A DNA stretch of 6,494 nt, from positions 1-6,494 of the forward strand of contig JAGQHH010000096.1 of NCBI GenBank assembly GCA_020431945.1, in the 5' to 3' direction. The stretch comes from Cyanobacteria bacterium HKST-UBA02. Its GTDB lineage: Bacteria > Cyanobacteriota > Vampirovibrionia > Obscuribacterales > Obscuribacteraceae. Positions 1 to 6,494 of this stretch are shown here, piece by piece. A program made the translations under genes and the position numbers. The notes below the pieces were generated by a model. The model was not told the origin of the DNA and did not search any database. It worked only from the letters and a program-made list of their open reading frames with translations. The stretch's first letter is position 1. The number at the start of each line of letters is the position of its first letter.

Positions 1-85
1 CTTCGGCGGGCTGGGCTGTAACCGGCGAGAACAGAAGAGCGAAGGCGGGCATGAGAGCGAGAGTAACGAGGAGTTTGTTTTTCAT
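1..85 (-). CDS. Secreted or exported protein, N-terminal signal peptide only (cut by window edge)
   Basis: Only the first 28 codons are in the window; the gene continues past the left edge. The start ATG is at 85..83. The protein begins MKNKLLVTLALMPAF and continues ALLFSPVTAQPAE: a positively charged N-terminus (K2, K4), a hydrophobic core of about 15 residues, and a VTA-Q site fitting signal peptidase I (cleavage after about residue 24). It is therefore probably exported by the Sec route; the absence of a Cys after the core argues against a lipoprotein. The mature protein is unseen, so no function can be given. It lies 66 bases downstream of the YgfZ-TPR gene on the same strand. No good Shine-Dalgarno sequence is visible before the ATG. 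An upstream ATG at 96..94 is followed at once by TAA and cannot be the start. Confidence 0.75.
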   Translation of the reverse strand, partial: MKNKLLVTLALMPAFALLFSPVTAQPAE

Positions 86-151
86 AGTAATTACATTTAT
101 TCCCGGTTGTGTCCGGGGGATCTCGCCGGCCAGCCCGGTTTAACGATTACT
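86..151 (-). other. Intergenic gap between YgfZ-TPR and secreted protein genes
   Basis: This 66-base gap separates the YgfZ-TPR stop from the next start. It holds GC-rich short self-complementary words (GGCCGG, CCGG) without a long stem or T-run, so I see no convincing terminator. AACCGGG occurs twice as a direct repeat on the minus strand (140..134 and 108..102). The 3' end is AT-rich and contains the 8-base palindrome GTAATTAC (87..94) directly before the start codon. A weak promoter could lie here, but no clear -35/-10 pair stands out. Confidence 0.4.
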
Positions 152-1876
152 TCAACTTTCTACGGAAGCCAGATGAGCCTGCATTTTCTTGAGGGGCTCC
201 ATGTCTCCTCGTCTGGCTGCTACTTCCACGCCAAGACTCCAGGCATCGGCAGCGTCTTTGCGCTTGTCCAGAGCCAGGAGAGCCCTGCCCAGGTCGAGAT
301 AAGCGACAGTGTGGCTGGGTTTGATCTCGATGGCTCTGCGCAGATAGTCGAGTGCCCGCTCCGCTTCGTCGAGATCGAGAAGACAGCTACCCATTCCGTA
401 GTTAGCCAGGAGGTCTTGACTGTCGATTTCCAGGACCTGCTCGAACATTTTCATTCTCGAGACTGTCTCTTCTCGTCTTGCTTTCGTCTCGTCGTCTCGT
501 TTTTTCTCTTCCATAGCCAGTCTTGCCGCTTCGCGCATGCGTATGCTCATCGATTCTGCTTTATGCTCTTCGGCTTTTTCCTTGTCGCCTTTTTCGAGCC
601 AGAATACCGAGAGATTGGTGTGAGCCATGGCCGAGTTTGGATTGAGGCGTCTGAGCAATTCCATGGTCTCGATGGCCTCGTCGAGGCTGGAGCGTTTGGA
701 TAGTATCACCCCCAGTGCTTCAAGAGCATCCTCGAAGACCGGATCGAGAACAAGTGACTGGCGCAAGAGGGCGATGGACCGTGAACCTTCCACGGAGAGC
801 TCGGCGGGCTCCCGGGCATATTCTTGAAGTGCTTCCTCATAGAGGCTGCGGGCTTGCTCGCCCAGATCCGGGCGCTCATAAAAGGGTAGAAGCCTGACGG
901 TGAGCCTCGCCTGATTACCGTCTATAGTTACCTCCAGCTCGCGATCCGGGGTCCGGTAGTCACGCTTGATCATCACAAGAGCCAGATATCTACCGAGGAA
1001 TTCGGATGGACAATTGGATCTGATATAGCCGATCTTTTCCGTGTCTCTGAGTACCGGACTGCCCGGGGTCAATTCAGAACCAGGCGCCGGCTCAATCTCG
1101 GCTCCCACCAGGGCCCGGCTGGGAGCCCCCTGGCTGCGTATCCGGGCAAGCACCTCCTGTCCCTGGAAACAACCTTTCTCATAGCTCACAGCCGTCTCCG
1201 CATAAGGTGTTTCGGCGATCAGGTTGTCCTGGTCGAAATCGACGCCGAAGACCGCAATACCCGCCTCGATTCTGGCGGTACGGGCCAGATCGTCGTCGAG
1301 TTCCACCAGACCCCTTCTGGAGACCTCTTTCTCGATTGCTTTTCGCGGTTCTGCAGATCCCCGGGCAGAGCAGATTAGAAAGCCTTCTTCACCGGTATTG
1401 CTCACCGAGAAAACGGTTACTTCTTTTTCGAAAAGCCGGCCTTTCCAGATGTCCTGACTGAACAGCCTGGCATCGGGCTGGTCGAGTCCGGTCAGTAGAA
1501 TCAGCCGGCTCTGCCGTCCTTCCAGCAGATGAGCTGAAAAGGAGCCGGTGATCTCTTCGATTGCCACCCTGTCGTTGAATATGAAGCGTTCCAGGTGCTC
1601 GATGATCGGTGCTGCCCCGGGGGCGAGGAGGTAATAGGAGGGCTCTTTCTCGTCAGCGTCCGGGTCGAGATAGATATGGAAAACGCTCACCACATGAGCC
1701 TTCCTGCTTACCAGAGCGGAGAGCTGGCTGCCCCCGGGCTCGAGCCTGGAGATATCGCTGGTGACCTGGGATTGCAGGAAACGTCGGCTGTCTTTGCCGC
1801 TTATCCGAACGATCGCGGTCCGATTTTCGAAGCCGTGTTTGTAACAGCCTTTCTCTCTTATTGTCCTGGTGTTCAT
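152..1876 (-). CDS. YgfZ/GcvT-like folate-binding protein fused to C-terminal TPR domain
   Basis: This is a 574-residue two-part protein. Residues 1 to about 330 match a complete YgfZ (usual length about 325): a GcvT-like N-terminal segment (VRISGKDSRRFLQSQVTSDI, residues 23-42) and the family signature KGCFQGQE at 234-241 with the conserved cysteine C236. YgfZ proteins bind folate and support assembly or repair of Fe-S enzymes, with this cysteine important in E. coli. Residues about 340-574 are helical TPR-like repeats. The clearest are at about 383-416 (EALGVILSKRSSLDEAIETM) and 487-555 (ALDYLRRAIEIKP and AYLDLGRALLALDKRKDAAD). A highly charged helix or coiled coil at about 445-475 lies between them. 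TAA lies directly upstream in frame, so ATG 1876 is the first possible start; its Shine-Dalgarno sequence is weak. The A-type Fe-S carrier gene sits 71 bases upstream. The YgfZ half is secure and the repeat count approximate. The TPR part probably mediates partner binding (inference). Confidence 0.9.
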   Translation of the reverse strand: MNTRTIREKGCYKHGFENRTAIVRISGKDSRRFLQSQVTSDISRLEPGGSQLSALVSRKAHVVSVFHIYLDPDADEKEPSYYLLAPGAAPIIEHLERFIFNDRVAIEEITGSFSAHLLEGRQSRLILLTGLDQPDARLFSQDIWKGRLFEKEVTVFSVSNTGEEGFLICSARGSAEPRKAIEKEVSRRGLVELDDDLARTARIEAGIAVFGVDFDQDNLIAETPYAETAVSYEKGCFQGQEVLARIRSQGAPSRALVGAEIEPAPGSELTPGSPVLRDTEKIGYIRSNCPSEFLGRYLALVMIKRDYRTPDRELEVTIDGNQARLTVRLLPFYERPDLGEQARSLYEEALQEYAREPAELSVEGSRSIALLRQSLVLDPVFEDALEALGVILSKRSSLDEAIETMELLRRLNPNSAMAHTNLSVFWLEKGDKEKAEEHKAESMSIRMREAARLAMEEKKRDDETKARREETVSRMKMFEQVLEIDSQDLLANYGMGSCLLDLDEAERALDYLRRAIEIKPSHTVAYLDLGRALLALDKRKDAADAWSLGVEVAARRGDMEPLKKMQAHLASVES

Positions 1877-1897
1877 TTATTTTCTGCTCGAAAGTGG

Positions 1898-1927
1898 CGA
1901 CCCGTGCCGGTCAGCCGGCACGGGTCG
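1898..1927 (-). promoter_or_regulatory. Perfect 13-bp hairpin between the Fe-S carrier and YgfZ-TPR genes
   Basis: The arms CGACCCGTGCCGG (1898-1910) and CCGGCACGGGTCG (1915-1927) are exact reverse complements around the 4-base loop TCAG, giving a very stable GC-rich stem. It starts 20 bases after the carrier stop codon and ends 21 bases before the YgfZ-TPR start. Downstream on the minus strand there is only TTT, not a U-run, so it is not a textbook intrinsic terminator. It may be an imperfect terminator, an attenuator, or a stem that stabilises or processes mRNA and sets different expression levels for the two genes. Confidence 0.6.
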
Positions 1928-1947
1928 AGGATAGTCCTGATTTTTCT

Positions 1948-2298
1948 CTAAACAGAGAAAGACTCGCCGCAGCCGCAGGTCCCTTTGGCTTGCGGATTCT
2001 TGATTACGAAGCCTTTGCCTTGCAGACCGCTCTGGAAGTCCAGGACGGTGCCTTTGAGATAGATGGCGCTCTTGGGATCGATGAAGACCTTGACGCCATG
2101 TTGCTCGATGACATGGTCTTTCTCCTGGGCGCTATCGAAGCTCAGCCCGTAAGACATACCTGAGCAGCCTCCGCCGCGAATCTCGAGCCTCAGCCCTTCT
2201 TTGCCTTGCTCTTCCTTGAGCAGCTCTTTCACCTGTTCGGCAGCAGCCTCGGTCAGCGTGACCACGGCAGTGCTTTCCTGGGTAGTGGATTCGGTCAT
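1948..2298 (-). CDS. A-type iron-sulfur carrier protein (IscA/SufA/ErpA family)
   Basis: This 116-residue protein is of typical length for A-type carriers, which bind Fe-S clusters or iron and pass them to target enzymes in the cytoplasm. All three ligand cysteines are present in the family arrangement: C45 in GGGCSGMSY and C108/C110 in TCGCGESF near the C-terminus. The segment KSAIYLKGTVLDF followed by GLQGKGFVIKNP is also typical. I cannot assign IscA, SufA or ErpA by sequence alone, so no symbol is given. ATG 2298 was chosen because GAGGTGG lies 6 bases upstream. The alternative ATG at 2313 would add MRWQS and overlap the NUDIX stop as ATGA, with a weaker AGGA 8 bases upstream. No isc or suf scaffold or desulfurase gene is in the window. 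The neighbouring YgfZ-TPR gene fits a shared Fe-S role. Confidence 0.93.
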   Translation of the reverse strand: MTESTTQESTAVVTLTEAAAEQVKELLKEEQGKEGLRLEIRGGGCSGMSYGLSFDSAQEKDHVIEQHGVKVFIDPKSAIYLKGTVLDFQSGLQGKGFVIKNPQAKGTCGCGESFSV

Positions 2299-2304
2299 TG
2301 ATTG

Positions 2305-2311
2305 CCACCTC
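2305..2311 (-). promoter_or_regulatory. Ribosome binding site deciding the Fe-S carrier start
   Basis: GAGGTGG on the minus strand lies 6 bases before ATG 2298 and agrees with the 16S rRNA-complementary GGAGGTG. It overlaps the NUDIX stop codon (2310-2312). This favours the 116-residue form and suggests translational coupling to the gene before it. Confidence 0.6.
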
Positions 2312-2933
2312 ATATCGTTCGTCCTGATAATTTACCATATTCTCCCAGTTTCGAGGCTACTCTCGCCAGTTTGGGCTCCGGGCTCTTAATAAGCTCGGCA
2401 AGTTGGACGAATTTGTAATTGATGAGCTCGTCCTTTTTGATGTTTATATCCGCTTTCTCAGGTTGATCCGCCACCAGGACATAGAGAAAATCGTGGTGGT
2501 AATGGCTTTCCTCGTCCCTTTTAGCATTGGCAGGGATGAAATGAGTGTCTATATCGAGAGGAATCTCATGGTCCCGGTGCCAGTCTGCAGCCCGGACCCC
2601 GCTGATGCCTGTTTCTTCGGTAAATTCTCGGAAGGCGCCCCTTTCGGGTAGCTCGTCGGGATCGAGATGACCGCCGGGCTGGATCCAGATGTCCAGGCTT
2701 CTGTGGTGGACCAATAGAGCGGTACTGGCGATGGTATCAACGAACAGGGCGCTGGCGGTGAGGTGCCCGCGGAAATTGCGGCGCTGGCAGATGCTCGGTC
2801 CTTCCTCCCGGAGCTGGCTTGCAAGAGCCGTAAGAGCCTCTGTCTCCGCCGGGAAGGTGTTCAGATAACGCTGCAAGATTCCGCTCACCGCTTCCAGATA
2901 GGCGGGGCTGTTCTCAATCAGCTCAGTCTTCAT
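2310..2933 (-). CDS. NUDIX hydrolase
   Basis: This 207-residue protein has a perfect Nudix box, G-x5-E-x7-R-E-U-x-E-E-x-G-U, at residues 88-110. It starts GHLDPDE and ends REFTEETGI; R102, E103, E106 and E107 form the metal-binding core. The box is preceded by LLVHHRSLDIWIQPGGH, a common form in the family. NUDIX enzymes hydrolyse nucleoside diphosphates linked to another group, such as damaged dNTPs, NADH or sugar nucleotides; the substrate cannot be read from this sequence. The roughly 55-residue helical extension before the catalytic fold carries NFRGHLTASA, which recurs in NUDIX proteins of this kind. ATG 2933 has GGAG 10 bases upstream. ATG 2939 (adding MP) has it only 4 bases upstream and is possible. 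The start overlaps the upstream thioredoxin-like gene by 11 or 17 bases, so the two are co-transcribed. The stop overlaps the carrier's ribosome binding site. Confidence 0.93.
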   Translation of the reverse strand: MKTELIENSPAYLEAVSGILQRYLNTFPAETEALTALASQLREEGPSICQRRNFRGHLTASALFVDTIASTALLVHHRSLDIWIQPGGHLDPDELPERGAFREFTEETGISGVRAADWHRDHEIPLDIDTHFIPANAKRDEESHYHHDFLYVLVADQPEKADINIKKDELINYKFVQLAELIKSPEPKLARVASKLGEYGKLSGRTI

Positions 2934-3540
2934 CGGCATCTTTCTCCATGTACTTGCGGTACTCTCGTTTCAAATCTTTGTATAGCTCGGTGGCGTTGCG
3001 GTAGCCGCCCATGTTGCCGACCACGGTGCCGTCCGGGGAGACCACCTCCACATGAGGCACCATGATGCAGGAATATTTTCGATAGATGGCATATTCGGTC
3101 TCATTGAGAGTCTTGTCGAAAGCGATTTTGACCGGAAAGAAATCTCTCTCGATCAGCTCTCTGACATCGGGATTGTAGACCGAGAGCCTGGCCATACGCT
3201 GGCAGAGAATATTGTTCTCGTCCGTGTAGAAGATCAGGACAGGACGCCGGTCCTTATTGGAAGAGAACAATCTGCTGAAATCCATTGGCCGGTTTGCGGT
3301 TTTCTTTCCGGGCTCTTTCTCTTTGTCTTCTTTCTCCTCTTTCTTTTTGTTCTTCAAGAAATAGTCTTTCACTTCGTCTTTGCTCACCGCCGGAACCGCC
3401 TGCCAGGCTATCTTCGCCGAGGACGGGATAGCCGCTCCGGTTTCGAGTCGGTCGACACAGACTCTGGTGCCGGTGGCTATAAAGGCGGCGGTGAGAAGAA
3501 GGGAGACATTGCCCCTGGTATTGCCTTTCTTAGTCAGCAT
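2923..3540 (-). CDS. Membrane-anchored thioredoxin-fold protein with degenerate NxxC active site
   Basis: This is a 205-residue protein. A hydrophobic stretch at about 12-29 (VSLLLTAAFIATGTRVCV) after a basic start suggests an N-terminal membrane anchor or uncleaved signal. A linker rich in Lys and Glu follows at 63-80. From about 98 the sequence follows the Thioredoxin_7-like pattern: RRPVLIFYTDENNILCQRM, then DVRELIERDFFPVKIAFD, then the cis-proline motif MVPHVEVVSPDG (P162) and a C-terminal helix. Where active thioredoxins have CxxC, this protein has N110-I-L-C113, so the nucleophilic cysteine is missing and only the second remains. It is probably not a normal disulfide reductase. ATG 3540 is preferred because GGGAG lies 10 bases upstream. 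ATG 3561 would add seven residues, lengthen the permease overlap to 32 bases, and has no Shine-Dalgarno sequence. With the chosen start it overlaps the permease gene by 11 bases. The fold is likely; the role is unknown. Confidence 0.8.
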   Translation of the reverse strand: MLTKKGNTRGNVSLLLTAAFIATGTRVCVDRLETGAAIPSSAKIAWQAVPAVSKDEVKDYFLKNKKKEEKEDKEKEPGKKTANRPMDFSRLFSSNKDRRPVLIFYTDENNILCQRMARLSVYNPDVRELIERDFFPVKIAFDKTLNETEYAIYRKYSCIMVPHVEVVSPDGTVVGNMGGYRNATELYKDLKREYRKYMEKDADED

Positions 3541-4393
3541 CGTAGTGGTACTCCCGGGCATTTACTATGGCCGTGGCGCCGGCCAGGGCGATGAGAGTAT
3601 TGCTCACGGTCTCGAGAATCGGAGTGAAATAGAAAGGTCTGGCTGTGAACAGATCGTAGGTGTCTACTTTGGGAGCCAGGAAATTGGCCCCCTGGTAGAG
3701 CAGGCTCATATAGCTCTCGAATCCCTGCAGGGCCGAGCCGCCGAAGAGCACCGGGATTATCTCCCGGGTGAGCCAGTCGAGGATGCCCATGATCTGGAGC
3801 TCCATCAAGGTGATATCGGCATTGGAGCCGCTCTGGGGAAAAACCATGGATGCCGGCACCATGCGAATACCGATGGCCAGCTCGAAGGCGACGATGCCGA
3901 CCAGGATGCAGCTTTGATTGGGAAGGAGATAGATGAATGTGAAGATGCTCGAGATGGTAAGCGCTGCTACGATCCTATCGAAAAATTCAGCGGCGATCAT
4001 AAGAGGGGTCAGTCCGCTGTGGCTGAAGTTTCCGGCCAGAAGAAGAATGGTTGCCTGGGTGAGGGTGACGGCAGCGATTACCGTGGCGAGGGCGAGCCAT
4101 TTGGCTACTACATACTGGAAGCGATGCAGGGGTCTGGTGACGATTAGGGGCATATAGTCGCTGCGGCCGCCCAGAGTGAGGGAGCCCACGCAACTGGTGA
4201 TGGTGACCACGAAAAAGCCCAGGAGAATCGAGACGGTATTGGGATCTACCGGGCTCACTGTGGGCATCATCGGGGCGATTTCTCGGTTTCGATCGAGAAT
4301 CGGTCCGGCAATCGCGATCAGAAAAAGAGAGACCATGACGAATTTGTGCCGGCAGATCTTCAAGATTGTTTCTGAATAGATAGTACGGTTCAT
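3530..4393 (-). CDS. ABC-2 type transporter permease
   Basis: This 287-residue integral membrane protein has about six hydrophobic segments, near residues 17-33, 54-75, 97-120, 139-157, 161-177 and 262-277. After the second segment comes GGRSDYMPLIVTRPLHRFQY, then VVAKWLA. This matches the cytoplasmic loop of ABC-2 permeases, which usually reads like SDE..G....L..P..R..Y...K. A long loop at about 178-261, predicted outside the helices, separates segments 5 and 6 and contains amphipathic stretches. It is the membrane half of an exporter or other ABC-2 system whose ATPase is the gene just upstream; ATPase stop and permease start overlap as ATGA (4390-4393). No second permease is visible, so the unit may work as a homodimer. 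The substrate cannot be inferred; drug, lipid, polysaccharide and gliding-type systems all use this family. The Shine-Dalgarno sequence is weak, so translation is probably coupled. Confidence 0.88.
   Translation of the reverse strand: MNRTIYSETILKICRHKFVMVSLFLIAIAGPILDRNREIAPMMPTVSPVDPNTVSILLGFFVVTITSCVGSLTLGGRSDYMPLIVTRPLHRFQYVVAKWLALATVIAAVTLTQATILLLAGNFSHSGLTPLMIAAEFFDRIVAALTISSIFTFIYLLPNQSCILVGIVAFELAIGIRMVPASMVFPQSGSNADITLMELQIMGILDWLTREIIPVLFGGSALQGFESYMSLLYQGANFLAPKVDTYDLFTARPFYFTPILETVSNTLIALAGATAIVNAREYHYDAD
3551..3555 (-). promoter_or_regulatory. Ribosome binding site of the thioredoxin-fold gene
   Basis: GGGAG on the minus strand lies 10 bases before ATG 3540, inside the end of the permease gene. 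It supports ATG 3540 over ATG 3561, which has no purine-rich site in front of it. Confidence 0.45.
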
Positions 4394-5307
4394 TGTTTCT
4401 TGTCGAAAAGCCTTTCCAGAGGAGTCGATTCGGGGCTGGCCGACTGGATTTCGATGCCGGCATCCACCATGGCTTTGAGGGCGGCGGCGGCCACCGCCGA
4501 GCGCTCCACCGATATCCTGGCACCGCTTTCGGTGAGCTCCATGAGAGCTGTCCCGGGAGGAAGGATCTCGTTGATAAGCCGTTGTTCGAGATCTTCTTCC
4601 TTATCTCTTGCCAGCCATTTGATCCTCAGGATATGGGGGAGATCGTCACCGTCGGCTATGGCTTTGATACTGTCGATCTCGCCGTTGCGTATAAAGGCGA
4701 CCCGATCGCAAACACGCTCCATCTCGTCGAGATGGTGCGAATTGAGGATTATGGTCACTCCCTTCTGCTTGAGCTCGAGAAGCAGCTCACGAAGCAGGGC
4801 TACCCCCGGGGGATCCATGCCGGAGCCGGGCTCATCGAGAAAGAGAATGGCAGGATCGCCGATGAGAGCCTGAGCAAGACCGAGACGTTGCAACATGCCC
4901 CGGGAGAATTTGTTGATCCGCCTGTCCCAGGTATCGCGCTCGAGACGGACCATATCGAGGACGGCTTCGACTCTTTCCTGACGTGATTTCCGATCCCCTC
5001 CGGACAGGGCATGGTGATAAGCGATGAAACGCCGGGCTGTGAACCATGATTCGAAAAATGGACGCTCGGGGAGGAAGCCCAGAGTCTCACGCACTGCCAG
5101 ATCGTTTGGGTCGAGACCATCTATGCGGACAGTGCCACCATCCGGATGAAGAAGCCCGAGCATGCAGCCCATGAGGGTGGTCTTACCGGCACCGTTGGGA
5201 CCGAGCAGACCGAAACATTCTCCCCGGGCGACATCCAGATCGATACCCTTGAGGGCGAGGTCCTTTCTGCCCTCGTAGGCTTTGACTAGCTCTCTGACTT
5301 CGATCAA
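4390..5307 (-). CDS. ABC transporter ATP-binding protein (ABC-2 export type)
   Basis: This 305-residue cytoplasmic ATPase powers the permease downstream. Visible motifs in order: Walker A GPNGAGKTT (36-44); Q-loop region LGFLPERPFF, with Glu81 in place of the usual Gln, as often seen in this subfamily; signature FSRGMLQRLGLAQAL (134-148), a variant of LSGGQ; Walker B ILFLDEP (154-160) with E159; D-loop SGMD (162-165); and switch histidine H191 in NSHHLDE. Residues from about 220 form the accessory C-terminal domain, ending in SASPESTPLERLFDKKQ, which resembles the SLE..F ending common in CcmA/NatA-like ATPases. The start codon is TTG at 5307..5305. The in-frame TAA at 5322..5320 is the only upstream boundary and no ATG or GTG lies between, so TTG is well supported. 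CGGA lies about 8 bases upstream. The gene follows the unknown 193-residue gene after 12 bases. Confidence 0.94.
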   Translation of the reverse strand: MIEVRELVKAYEGRKDLALKGIDLDVARGECFGLLGPNGAGKTTLMGCMLGLLHPDGGTVRIDGLDPNDLAVRETLGFLPERPFFESWFTARRFIAYHHALSGGDRKSRQERVEAVLDMVRLERDTWDRRINKFSRGMLQRLGLAQALIGDPAILFLDEPGSGMDPPGVALLRELLLELKQKGVTIILNSHHLDEMERVCDRVAFIRNGEIDSIKAIADGDDLPHILRIKWLARDKEEDLEQRLINEILPPGTALMELTESGARISVERSAVAAAALKAMVDAGIEIQSASPESTPLERLFDKKQ

Positions 5308-5319
5308 GCGATTGATCCG

Positions 5320-5901
5320 TTATGCTCTGACGTCTGGCGAGAAGGCGTCGAAGACTACCTGCCCTAGTTCGCCCAGAAGCCGGAAGGCTTCCCTGCAAAC
5401 ATCGAGATCGAGCTGGTTGAAAGACTTGGGCTGGGACAGATAGACGCCGTAGCCGGCACGCACCACCAGCTCGTTGAAGCCCGTATATTTCTGGAGGTCC
5501 TCGATGCGGTCTTTGACTCCTGGATAATGCACGAAGCGCTCTGCCTGTTCGGAGCTGTTATGGTTGAATACATAACGTCCTTCGAAATGCTTGTCCCCCA
5601 CCGACTGACCCCGGGACTCGAAAAGAAAGATCCGGGACAGGACAGAGACTATGCCGGTGGCGAACCTGGGCACCAGAGATATATAGAAGACCTGATCCGC
5701 GGGCGGGCGACTTTTCGCATCAGGCTCGGTCTCCACGAAATAAGAGACGCCGAAAGGAAATCCCGAACGAATAGCCTCCAGGGTCGCCGGGAAGCCCAGC
5801 AGGGTTCCCTTGATACAGACTTCGACGCGCTTCGAGTCGTCCACAACCTTGCCTTCGATAATCTCGGCTATGGCTTTTTGTTTTGCCAGATCTGCGGTCA
5901 T
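5320..5901 (-). CDS. Conserved-looking protein of unknown function, 193 residues
   Basis: I do not recognise this protein. It has no signal peptide or convincing membrane helix and few cysteines (C29 and C169). The N-terminal half looks beta-rich (RVEVCIKGTLLGFPATLEAI and QVFYISLVPRF), followed by VSVLSRIFLFESRGQSVGDKH. A middle motif FEGRYVFNHNSSEQAERFVHYPG leads to KDRIEDLQKY, then NELVVRAGYGVYLSQPKSF, and the C-terminus is helical (LDVCREAFRLLGELGQVVFDAF). The second half loosely recalls proteins with an F...FVF..N....A..F......V...L..L layout, but I can name no family. The start overlaps the stop of the TPR gene as TGATG, so the two are translated together. No Shine-Dalgarno sequence is seen. 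It precedes the ABC ATPase by 12 bases. It could be an accessory or regulator of the ABC unit (inference). Confidence 0.85.
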   Translation of the reverse strand: MTADLAKQKAIAEIIEGKVVDDSKRVEVCIKGTLLGFPATLEAIRSGFPFGVSYFVETEPDAKSRPPADQVFYISLVPRFATGIVSVLSRIFLFESRGQSVGDKHFEGRYVFNHNSSEQAERFVHYPGVKDRIEDLQKYTGFNELVVRAGYGVYLSQPKSFNQLDLDVCREAFRLLGELGQVVFDAFSPDVRA

Positions 5902-6494
5902 CAGTTCGTTTCGCTTGGTTTGGCCTGCAAGTCCTCGGCAGAGGACGGCGGCTGGATGAACATGTCGACTTCTTTGCCGTTCTCTTTCTTGATTTTGAGC
6001 TTATTGCCGAAGAGCTTCTTGAGACCGCCACCGTCTTTCTTGTCACGGCTTTTCGTGCTCGGCTCCTGACGCCGGGCTGTGCGCAGACCGCTTTCGCTCT
6101 TGTCGCCGCCGGAAGAAACGCCGCTTGCCGTATTACCCTGCTTGCTCTCTTCTTCTCTCTGGCTGGTCAGCACTTTGTCTATATCCGATATCTGTTTGCG
6201 GGCGTGACGGACGAACTTGCCGCCGGGCTCCAGGGCTATGCCGCGCTCGAGCAGCACCCGGGCTGGAGCCAGATGCTCGTTCTGTTTGAGCAGCGAGCCG
6301 GCGCAATAGTAGGCATCAGCCATACGGGGATCGATAGCGATGGCCCGGGCGTAATATTTCAGAGACTCGTCGAGCTTTTTCTCGGATTCGAGAAGCTGGC
6401 CGATATTGTAATAAGCCGACGCGAATCCCGGATCGAGCTCGATGGCTCGTTTCCACTTGGCCAGGGCTTCATCGTTCTTCTTGAGCTGGAAAAG
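5901..6494 (-). CDS. TPR-repeat protein, C-terminal part (5' end beyond window)
   Basis: The frame is open to the right edge, so the gene is 5'-truncated here; the ATG at 6323 is internal and falls inside a repeat. The 197 visible residues begin LFQLKKNDEALAKWKRAIEL. They hold about three TPRs, with the usual landmarks in EALAKWKRAIELDPGFASAY, then YYNIGQLLESEKKLDESLKY, then YARAIAIDPRMADAYYCAGS and LLERGIALEPGG. From about residue 100 a low-complexity, charged tail begins, rich in S, K, E, G and R, with a basic patch GLKKLFGNKLKIKKENGKE before the C-terminus. TPR regions mediate protein-protein contacts; the basic tail could bind membrane or nucleic acid (inference). The stop overlaps the next start as TGATG. 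The function and full length cannot be read from this window. Confidence 0.88.
   Translation of the reverse strand, partial: LFQLKKNDEALAKWKRAIELDPGFASAYYNIGQLLESEKKLDESLKYYARAIAIDPRMADAYYCAGSLLKQNEHLAPARVLLERGIALEPGGKFVRHARKQISDIDKVLTSQREEESKQGNTASGVSSGGDKSESGLRTARRQEPSTKSRDKKDGGGLKKLFGNKLKIKKENGKEVDMFIQPPSSAEDLQAKPSETN

Follow-up and report, generated by a model that had tools for sequence, protein, structure and literature searches.

A YgfZ/IBA57-type protein with a conserved tetratricopeptide repeat arm, often encoded beside erpA

With which partner does bacterial YgfZ act in iron-sulfur (Fe-S) metabolism? A stretch of 6,494 nucleotides from Cyanobacteria bacterium HKST-UBA02, of the order Obscuribacterales (contig JAGQHH010000096.1, positions 1 to 6,494; here called the window), raises this question in a specific form. 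One gene of the window (152..1876, minus strand, ATG start) was found by open reading frame (ORF), domain and homologue searches to encode a 574-residue protein in which YgfZ is fused to a C-terminal arm of tetratricopeptide repeats (TPR), and a gene for an A-type Fe-S carrier lies directly upstream. Mitochondrial IBA57 has a known carrier partner, whereas the partner of bacterial YgfZ is unclear; the fusion makes the partner question directly testable. The answer that we consider probable is that the protein is a bacterial counterpart of the mitochondrial ISCA-IBA57 pair, a YgfZ/IBA57-type factor that would work with ErpA, with the arm as a docking module, most likely for the donor side. An excerpt of a 2023 paper describes bacterial YgfZ as a protein whose exact role in Fe-S metabolism was then uncharacterised (PMC10002905).

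We initially considered the integrity of the gene. The reading frame is open across the junction between YgfZ and TPR, where both other frames hold stops, and the YgfZ signature KGCFQGQE is intact, beginning at residue 234 (residues 234-241; 1154..1177, minus strand). ORF, Pfam and TIGR03317 results agree in this respect with a sequence-only reading of the window, which had described YgfZ and TPR in one frame. Among 7999 candidates scored, at least 477 homologues were found at E ≤ 0.001. Nearly all of the best 120 are full-length fusions, and those examined carry GCV_T, GCV_T_C and TPR together in 543-649 aa; the exceptions are P0004 (partial, 387 aa) and P0068, in which GCV_T_C was not called. 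Their names indicate Candidatus Obscuribacterales and Melainabacteria. A genome scan gave 343 pattern matches and 306 relatives, from which 79 loci were kept, these being the best matches to an Obscuribacterales query. They come from Obscuribacterales and other Melainabacteria, Hydrogenedentota, Bacteriovoracia and a few Acidobacteriota, some of the assignments being doubtful. The fusion is one ORF in 78 of the 79 loci, two of which (L035 and L076) run off the contig start. At L050 (9869-11646), from Obscuribacter, it is found in two ORFs of different frame, which is either an assembly error or a real break.

The YgfZ/IBA57 half comprises residues 22-333 (878..1813, minus strand). GCV_T matched residues 22-217 with 61.6 bits (Pfam cut-off, 25.6) and GCV_T_C residues 254-333 with 49.3 bits (cut-off, 25.9). 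The protein also passed the cut-off of the NCBIfam YgfZ domain model TIGR03317 (55.9 versus 49 bits) and fell far below that of the E. coli-type YgfZ equivalog NF007110 (PRK09559; 42 versus 219 bits). By these profile scores, it belongs in the broad YgfZ/IBA57 family (COG0354) only, and not in the E. coli-type equivalog. With that family it shares the two GCV_T domains, the KGCxxGQE motif and an Fe-S gene context; an excerpt of an earlier study already reports clustering of COG0354 genes with Fe/S genes (PMC3223725). It differs by the arm of about 235 residues and by its position on its own side of a tree of YgfZ sequences, described below. Residues K234, G235, C236, G239, Q240 and E241 are invariant in alignment A2, which holds 22 fusions, and KGCxxGQ is present in all 79 fusion loci. 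In the Bacteriovoracia and Acidobacteriota fusions, the middle of the YgfZ half is shortened (mostly aligned in two pieces), while the arm is full. Within fusion genomes, 14 of 21 relatives scored above the TIGR03317 cut-off and 7 below it, the latter being six from Bdellovibrionota-group genomes and that of genome G003. Since these seven lie under the NCBI cut-off, automatic naming would miss them.

The arm comprises residues 338-573 (158..865, minus strand). Several TPR models exceeded their Pfam cut-offs in the C-terminal half of the protein, and AlphaFold modeled the protein with a pLDDT of 89.9 and 11 helices within residues 338-573. Profile matches and the predicted alpha-solenoid fold identify the arm as a TPR domain, as the sequence-only reading had supposed, and where that reading saw a charged coiled-coil segment, a single 53-residue helix is predicted (residues 432-484; 425..583, minus strand) that joins two TPR blocks. 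In a reading by eye of the arm, the Lys/Asn/Lys set expected on helices A of three successive repeats in an Hsp70/Hsp90 carboxylate clamp was not seen.

The arm is the better conserved half of the fusion. Across 124 aligned fusion proteins (effective number, 92), columns of residues 22-333 carried on average 1.44 bits of information and those of residues 341-570 carried 2.05 bits. Between four groups, represented by 5, 5, 4 and 3 chosen proteins, the YgfZ half was 23-31% identical and the arm 35-43%. The most conserved column is C236 of the YgfZ motif, followed by M417, M477, H419, M405, M565, Q240 and N421.

The arm also has free-standing relatives. A search with it retrieved P0140, a 242-aa protein of Candidatus Omnitrophica with 33% identity over 95% of the query, and P0140, used as query in its turn, retrieved 228 proteins at E ≤ 0.001, counting itself. 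The best 120 of the 228 are mostly 223-248 aa in length; nine of these 120 carry an organism name, in each case Omnitrophica. In a profile comparison, this family of about 238 aa, which lacks a YgfZ half, matched the arm at full length (231 columns; probability, 100; E, 5.8e-65), and the match covers the TNLSxFY and RGDxxPLxxM stretches. By this comparison, the arm is a defined protein family, which some lineages have joined to YgfZ and another has as a free protein. A scan of viral contigs with alignment A3 found no free-standing member of the arm family, and one with the fusion alignment A2 gave one weak YgfZ-like locus, L215. In Acidobacteriota, small TPR proteins at L081, L082 and L086 resemble the N block of the arm, and those at L083-L085 and L087-L090, together with part of one ORF at L080, resemble the C block. 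We did not find an A-type carrier in the stretches fetched around them or an Fe-S gene among ten neighbors scanned. These ten matched a two-component kinase and regulator, peptidases, MgtC, YdjC and an acyltransferase, with one lacking a match, and they say nothing about function. TPR matches at L093 and L094, considered as relatives of the arm, appeared by eye to be generic TPR proteins and were rejected.

The gene upstream of the fusion (1948..2313, minus strand, 71 bp away) encodes a 121-aa A-type carrier of the ErpA type. It scored 77.3 bits against PF01521 (Fe-S_biosyn; cut-off, 26.3) and 123.6 bits against the ErpA equivalog NF010147 (cut-off, 117), and it holds the conserved C...CxC cysteines C50, C113 and C115. 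Thus, the carrier that the sequence-only reading placed there is of the ErpA type. We defined linkage as an A-type carrier on the same strand, from a 100-bp overlap to 1000 bp upstream of the ygfZ frame. By this definition, a carrier precedes the fusion in 72 of the 77 loci having upstream sequence, L035 and L076 being left out because they are cut by the contig end. The count becomes 74 when L059 and L060 are included, whose overlap is longer if measured from the first possible start; the carrier is absent upstream at L042, L053 and L067. Because an Obscuribacterales query had selected the 79 loci as its best matches, we repeated the count in draws of genomes from four phyla, without the seed genomes. 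Here, the carrier was upstream in 44 of 54 loci: 23 of 23 in the Bdellovibrionota draw, 20 of 25 in the Hydrogenedentota draw (misses, L177, L182, L186, L200 and L211) and 1 of 6, namely L207, in the Cyanobacteriota draw (misses, L201, L202, L203, L205 and L206). Five loci with less than 500 bp upstream (L179, L190, L204, L212 and L214) were dropped, as was L210, which is not a fusion locus. Conversely, none of 60 stand-alone ygfZ genes (20 from each of three phyla) had a carrier upstream by the same definition. These controls were hand-picked near the top of the stand-alone matches of each draw and not at random; KGCxxGQ is present in 59 of them (L115 lacks it), and some have only about 1 kb upstream (L123). 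A carrier was found anywhere in the fetched flank of 8 of the 60, and in three of these (L116, L117 and L121, all from the Bdellovibrionota draw) it adjoins the stand-alone ygfZ in convergent orientation. The fusion samples are related and partly overlapping, which makes Fisher p-values too small; the contrast itself is large. The link to the carrier gene is far stronger than the window by itself could show, at 74/77 versus 0/60, though it is not universal (44/54 in the draws).

The draws also indicate how widely the fusion occurs. In the draw around G001 (Cyanobacteriota), 8 of 194 genomes showed it; the figures are 24 of 114 for G002 (Bdellovibrionota), 1 of 119 for G003 (Acidobacteriota) and 30 of 60 for G004 (Hydrogenedentota). 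These counts include the seed genomes, the phylum names are inferred from the seed loci, and the draws overlap in part with the 79 loci (for example, G303 and L051). The G056 copy (Cyanobacteriota draw) contains stops, the G298 copy (Bdellovibrionota draw) is split over two contigs, and a few Hydrogenedentota copies are cut by contig ends. In the other genomes of the draws, most of the listed matches to the N-terminal half were frames some 290-460 aa long, in which stand-alone YgfZ is mixed with what is probably GcvT.

We then examined 21 fusion genomes chosen from the draw and locus sets, whose completeness is not stated. TIGR03317 gave exactly one match in each of the 21, always the frame of the fusion, and no second YgfZ match at E ≤ 1e-14 was seen outside the fusion in the 24 fusion genomes of the Bdellovibrionota draw. 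The fused form takes the place of a stand-alone YgfZ in these 21 genomes. Seventeen of the 21 hold a single PF01521 carrier, and in 13 of those 17 a comparison of positions placed it next to the fusion. SufB/D is present in 20 of the 21 genomes and an IscU/SufU-type scaffold in 8. In G435, the carrier lies away from the fusion, about 2.4 kb from a scaffold gene near sufB/D; in G004, it is likewise apart from the fusion, and the carrier and suf genes are on different contigs. The sequence-only reading was right that the fusion is real and that it is linked to the carrier, and a TPR fold is predicted for its C-terminal part. As a revision of that reading, the arm is not an optional add-on: it is the better conserved half, the fused form replaces stand-alone YgfZ in the 21 genomes, and the arm exists separately.

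Together, these results lead us to favor a model in which YgfZ-TPR would work with the neighboring ErpA as IBA57 does with ISCA proteins in mitochondria. There, ISCA is considered the site at which the [4Fe-4S] cluster is assembled, assisted by IBA57. By analogy, YgfZ-TPR and ErpA would complete and insert [4Fe-4S] clusters, supplied by the SUF system in most of these bacteria, and the invariant cysteine of KGCFQGQE (C236) would be the reactive residue of the YgfZ half. That the arm docks something, and what it docks, we infer. It may be a conserved module holding one conserved partner, and because the arm is so uniform, our guess is that this partner belongs to the donor side (ErpA or SUF) rather than being many different clients. 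The likeness to mitochondrial ISCA2-IBA57 is that an IBA57-type protein is paired with an A-type carrier, the human complex sharing a [2Fe-2S] cluster according to an excerpt of its description (PMC6908724). The present, putative pair differs in being bacterial, often encoded side by side and equipped with a proposed docking arm. In the excerpt of the 2023 paper, IBA57 genes are described as rescuing the growth phenotypes that an E. coli ygfZ mutant shows, and a paper cited there bears a title on IBA57 possibly acting without folate (PMC10002905). A further-reaching version, which we put forward only tentatively, is that the arm is itself a dedicated and so far unrecognised Fe-S biogenesis factor, the core of the unit and not an accessory. 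Free in Omnitrophota and, in four or more other lineages, joined to YgfZ, it would link YgfZ with the single A-type carrier in bacteria that mainly use SUF. As the fused form is, in distant groups, often encoded beside a genome's only A-type carrier gene, it offers a simple system for testing whether YgfZ acts on ErpA, and the conserved arm could be used as bait for the missing YgfZ partner.

The arm could instead serve the client side, binding apo-proteins, such as radical-SAM enzymes with two [4Fe-4S] clusters, and delivering them to the YgfZ half, while ErpA would meet YgfZ unaided. TPRs often bind peptides. The knockout of E. coli ygfZ strongly affects RimO and MiaB, as stated in the same excerpt (PMC10002905). 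However, conservation of the arm across groups suits one conserved partner better than many clients, and apart from the carrier, no ORF family (the families being partly named) recurs at a constant position in the majority of the 79 loci. We regard the client-side role as possible and clearly less probable than docking of the donor side.

A less likely explanation is that the arm has only a passive role in dimerisation or stability and that the erpA linkage is no more than inherited synteny. To look at the origin of the fusions, we built a quick maximum-likelihood tree from 39 fusions and 28 stand-alones (67 rows in all), aligned as whole proteins and restricted to columns up to the end of the barrel. 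One branch (SH-aLRT, 99) separates fusions from stand-alones. The tree is unrooted, its rows were chosen from the locus and draw sets with other phyla missing, the L198 fusion forms a long branch, and many rows have an odd letter composition. It shows no sign of repeated fusion among the 67 rows and fits a single fusion origin, followed by old divergence or transfer. If the fusions do stem from one event, the linkage counts are not independent, as inherited synteny would have it, and the linkage has been lost in some lineages. A passive role, on the other hand, is at odds with an arm that is the better conserved half and also exists as a free protein.

It is very improbable that the window protein is a GcvT-like folate enzyme and not a YgfZ. 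In a structure search, the N-terminal half matched GcvT, YgfZ (1nrk) and IBA57, the best matches being T-proteins (VIA-align rows of this search may mask further TPR relatives, and an absence there is uninformative), and the GCV_T Pfam match is common to both families. Although the fold match favors GcvT, we rejected this identity on the cut-offs: the GcvT equivalog TIGR00528 gave 55.6 bits against a cut-off of 235.85, while the YgfZ domain model was passed. Like the TPR arm, the KGC motif, found at 79 of 79 loci, sets the protein apart from GcvT, and several of nine genomes hold a separate match of 361-416 aa that is probably GcvT itself. Finally, a sequencing error joining two genes, for which only the two frames of L050 speak, is refuted by the single frame in 78 of 79 loci and by the full-length homologues.

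As far as we found, the fusion proteins are catalogued but not discussed in the literature. Homologues already bear the names "folate-binding protein YgfZ" and "tetratricopeptide repeat protein." No description of a YgfZ-TPR fusion turned up among the papers listed from the open-licence literature, as judged on titles and the starts of abstracts, and the accessible part of a review on YgfZ does not mention a TPR form (PMC8593673).

Two unusual family members were observed. At L200 (154-3051, minus strand; Hydrogenedentota), the ygfZ-tpr ORF is 966 aa long and has an in-frame insert of about 380 aa in the barrel part; the insert holds repeated RGMGVSPM segments, and from its appearance we take it to resemble a REP-associated transposase. 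At L112 (5012-7360, minus strand; Acidobacteriota), a YgfZ of 783 aa has about 420 N-terminal residues without a Pfam family match, which may reflect a wrong start. Upstream of erpA in L049-L079, two gene families recur on the same strand in 20 loci each, from Bacteriovoracia where checked; from their sequence appearance, we presume them to be acyl-CoA mutase-like and cobalamin adenosyltransferase-like.

All of the genes named in the window are on the minus strand. The first in the order of transcription encodes a TPR protein truncated at the window edge (5901-6494). It is followed by genes for a protein of 193 aa with no Pfam or NCBIfam match (5320-5901), an ABC ATPase (4390-5307), a membrane protein of the ABC-2 type (3530-4393; its Pfam matches are below the cut-off), a thioredoxin-like protein (2923-3561), a NUDIX protein (2310-2939), ErpA and, last, YgfZ-TPR. 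An ORF family similar by eye to the 193-aa protein occurs in 31 of the 79 loci, upstream of the fusion at its commonest listed places, and is a conserved family without an assigned role. The 71-nt gap between erpA and ygfZ-tpr folds as a whole at -32 kcal/mol and contains a perfect 13-bp hairpin (1898..1927), after which a T-run is absent in the coding direction. As a conserved element, the hairpin was rejected, with perfect stems of at least 8 bp in just 6 of 40 intergenic stretches (30-250 nt) of relatives. In the window, it may set unequal expression of the two genes.
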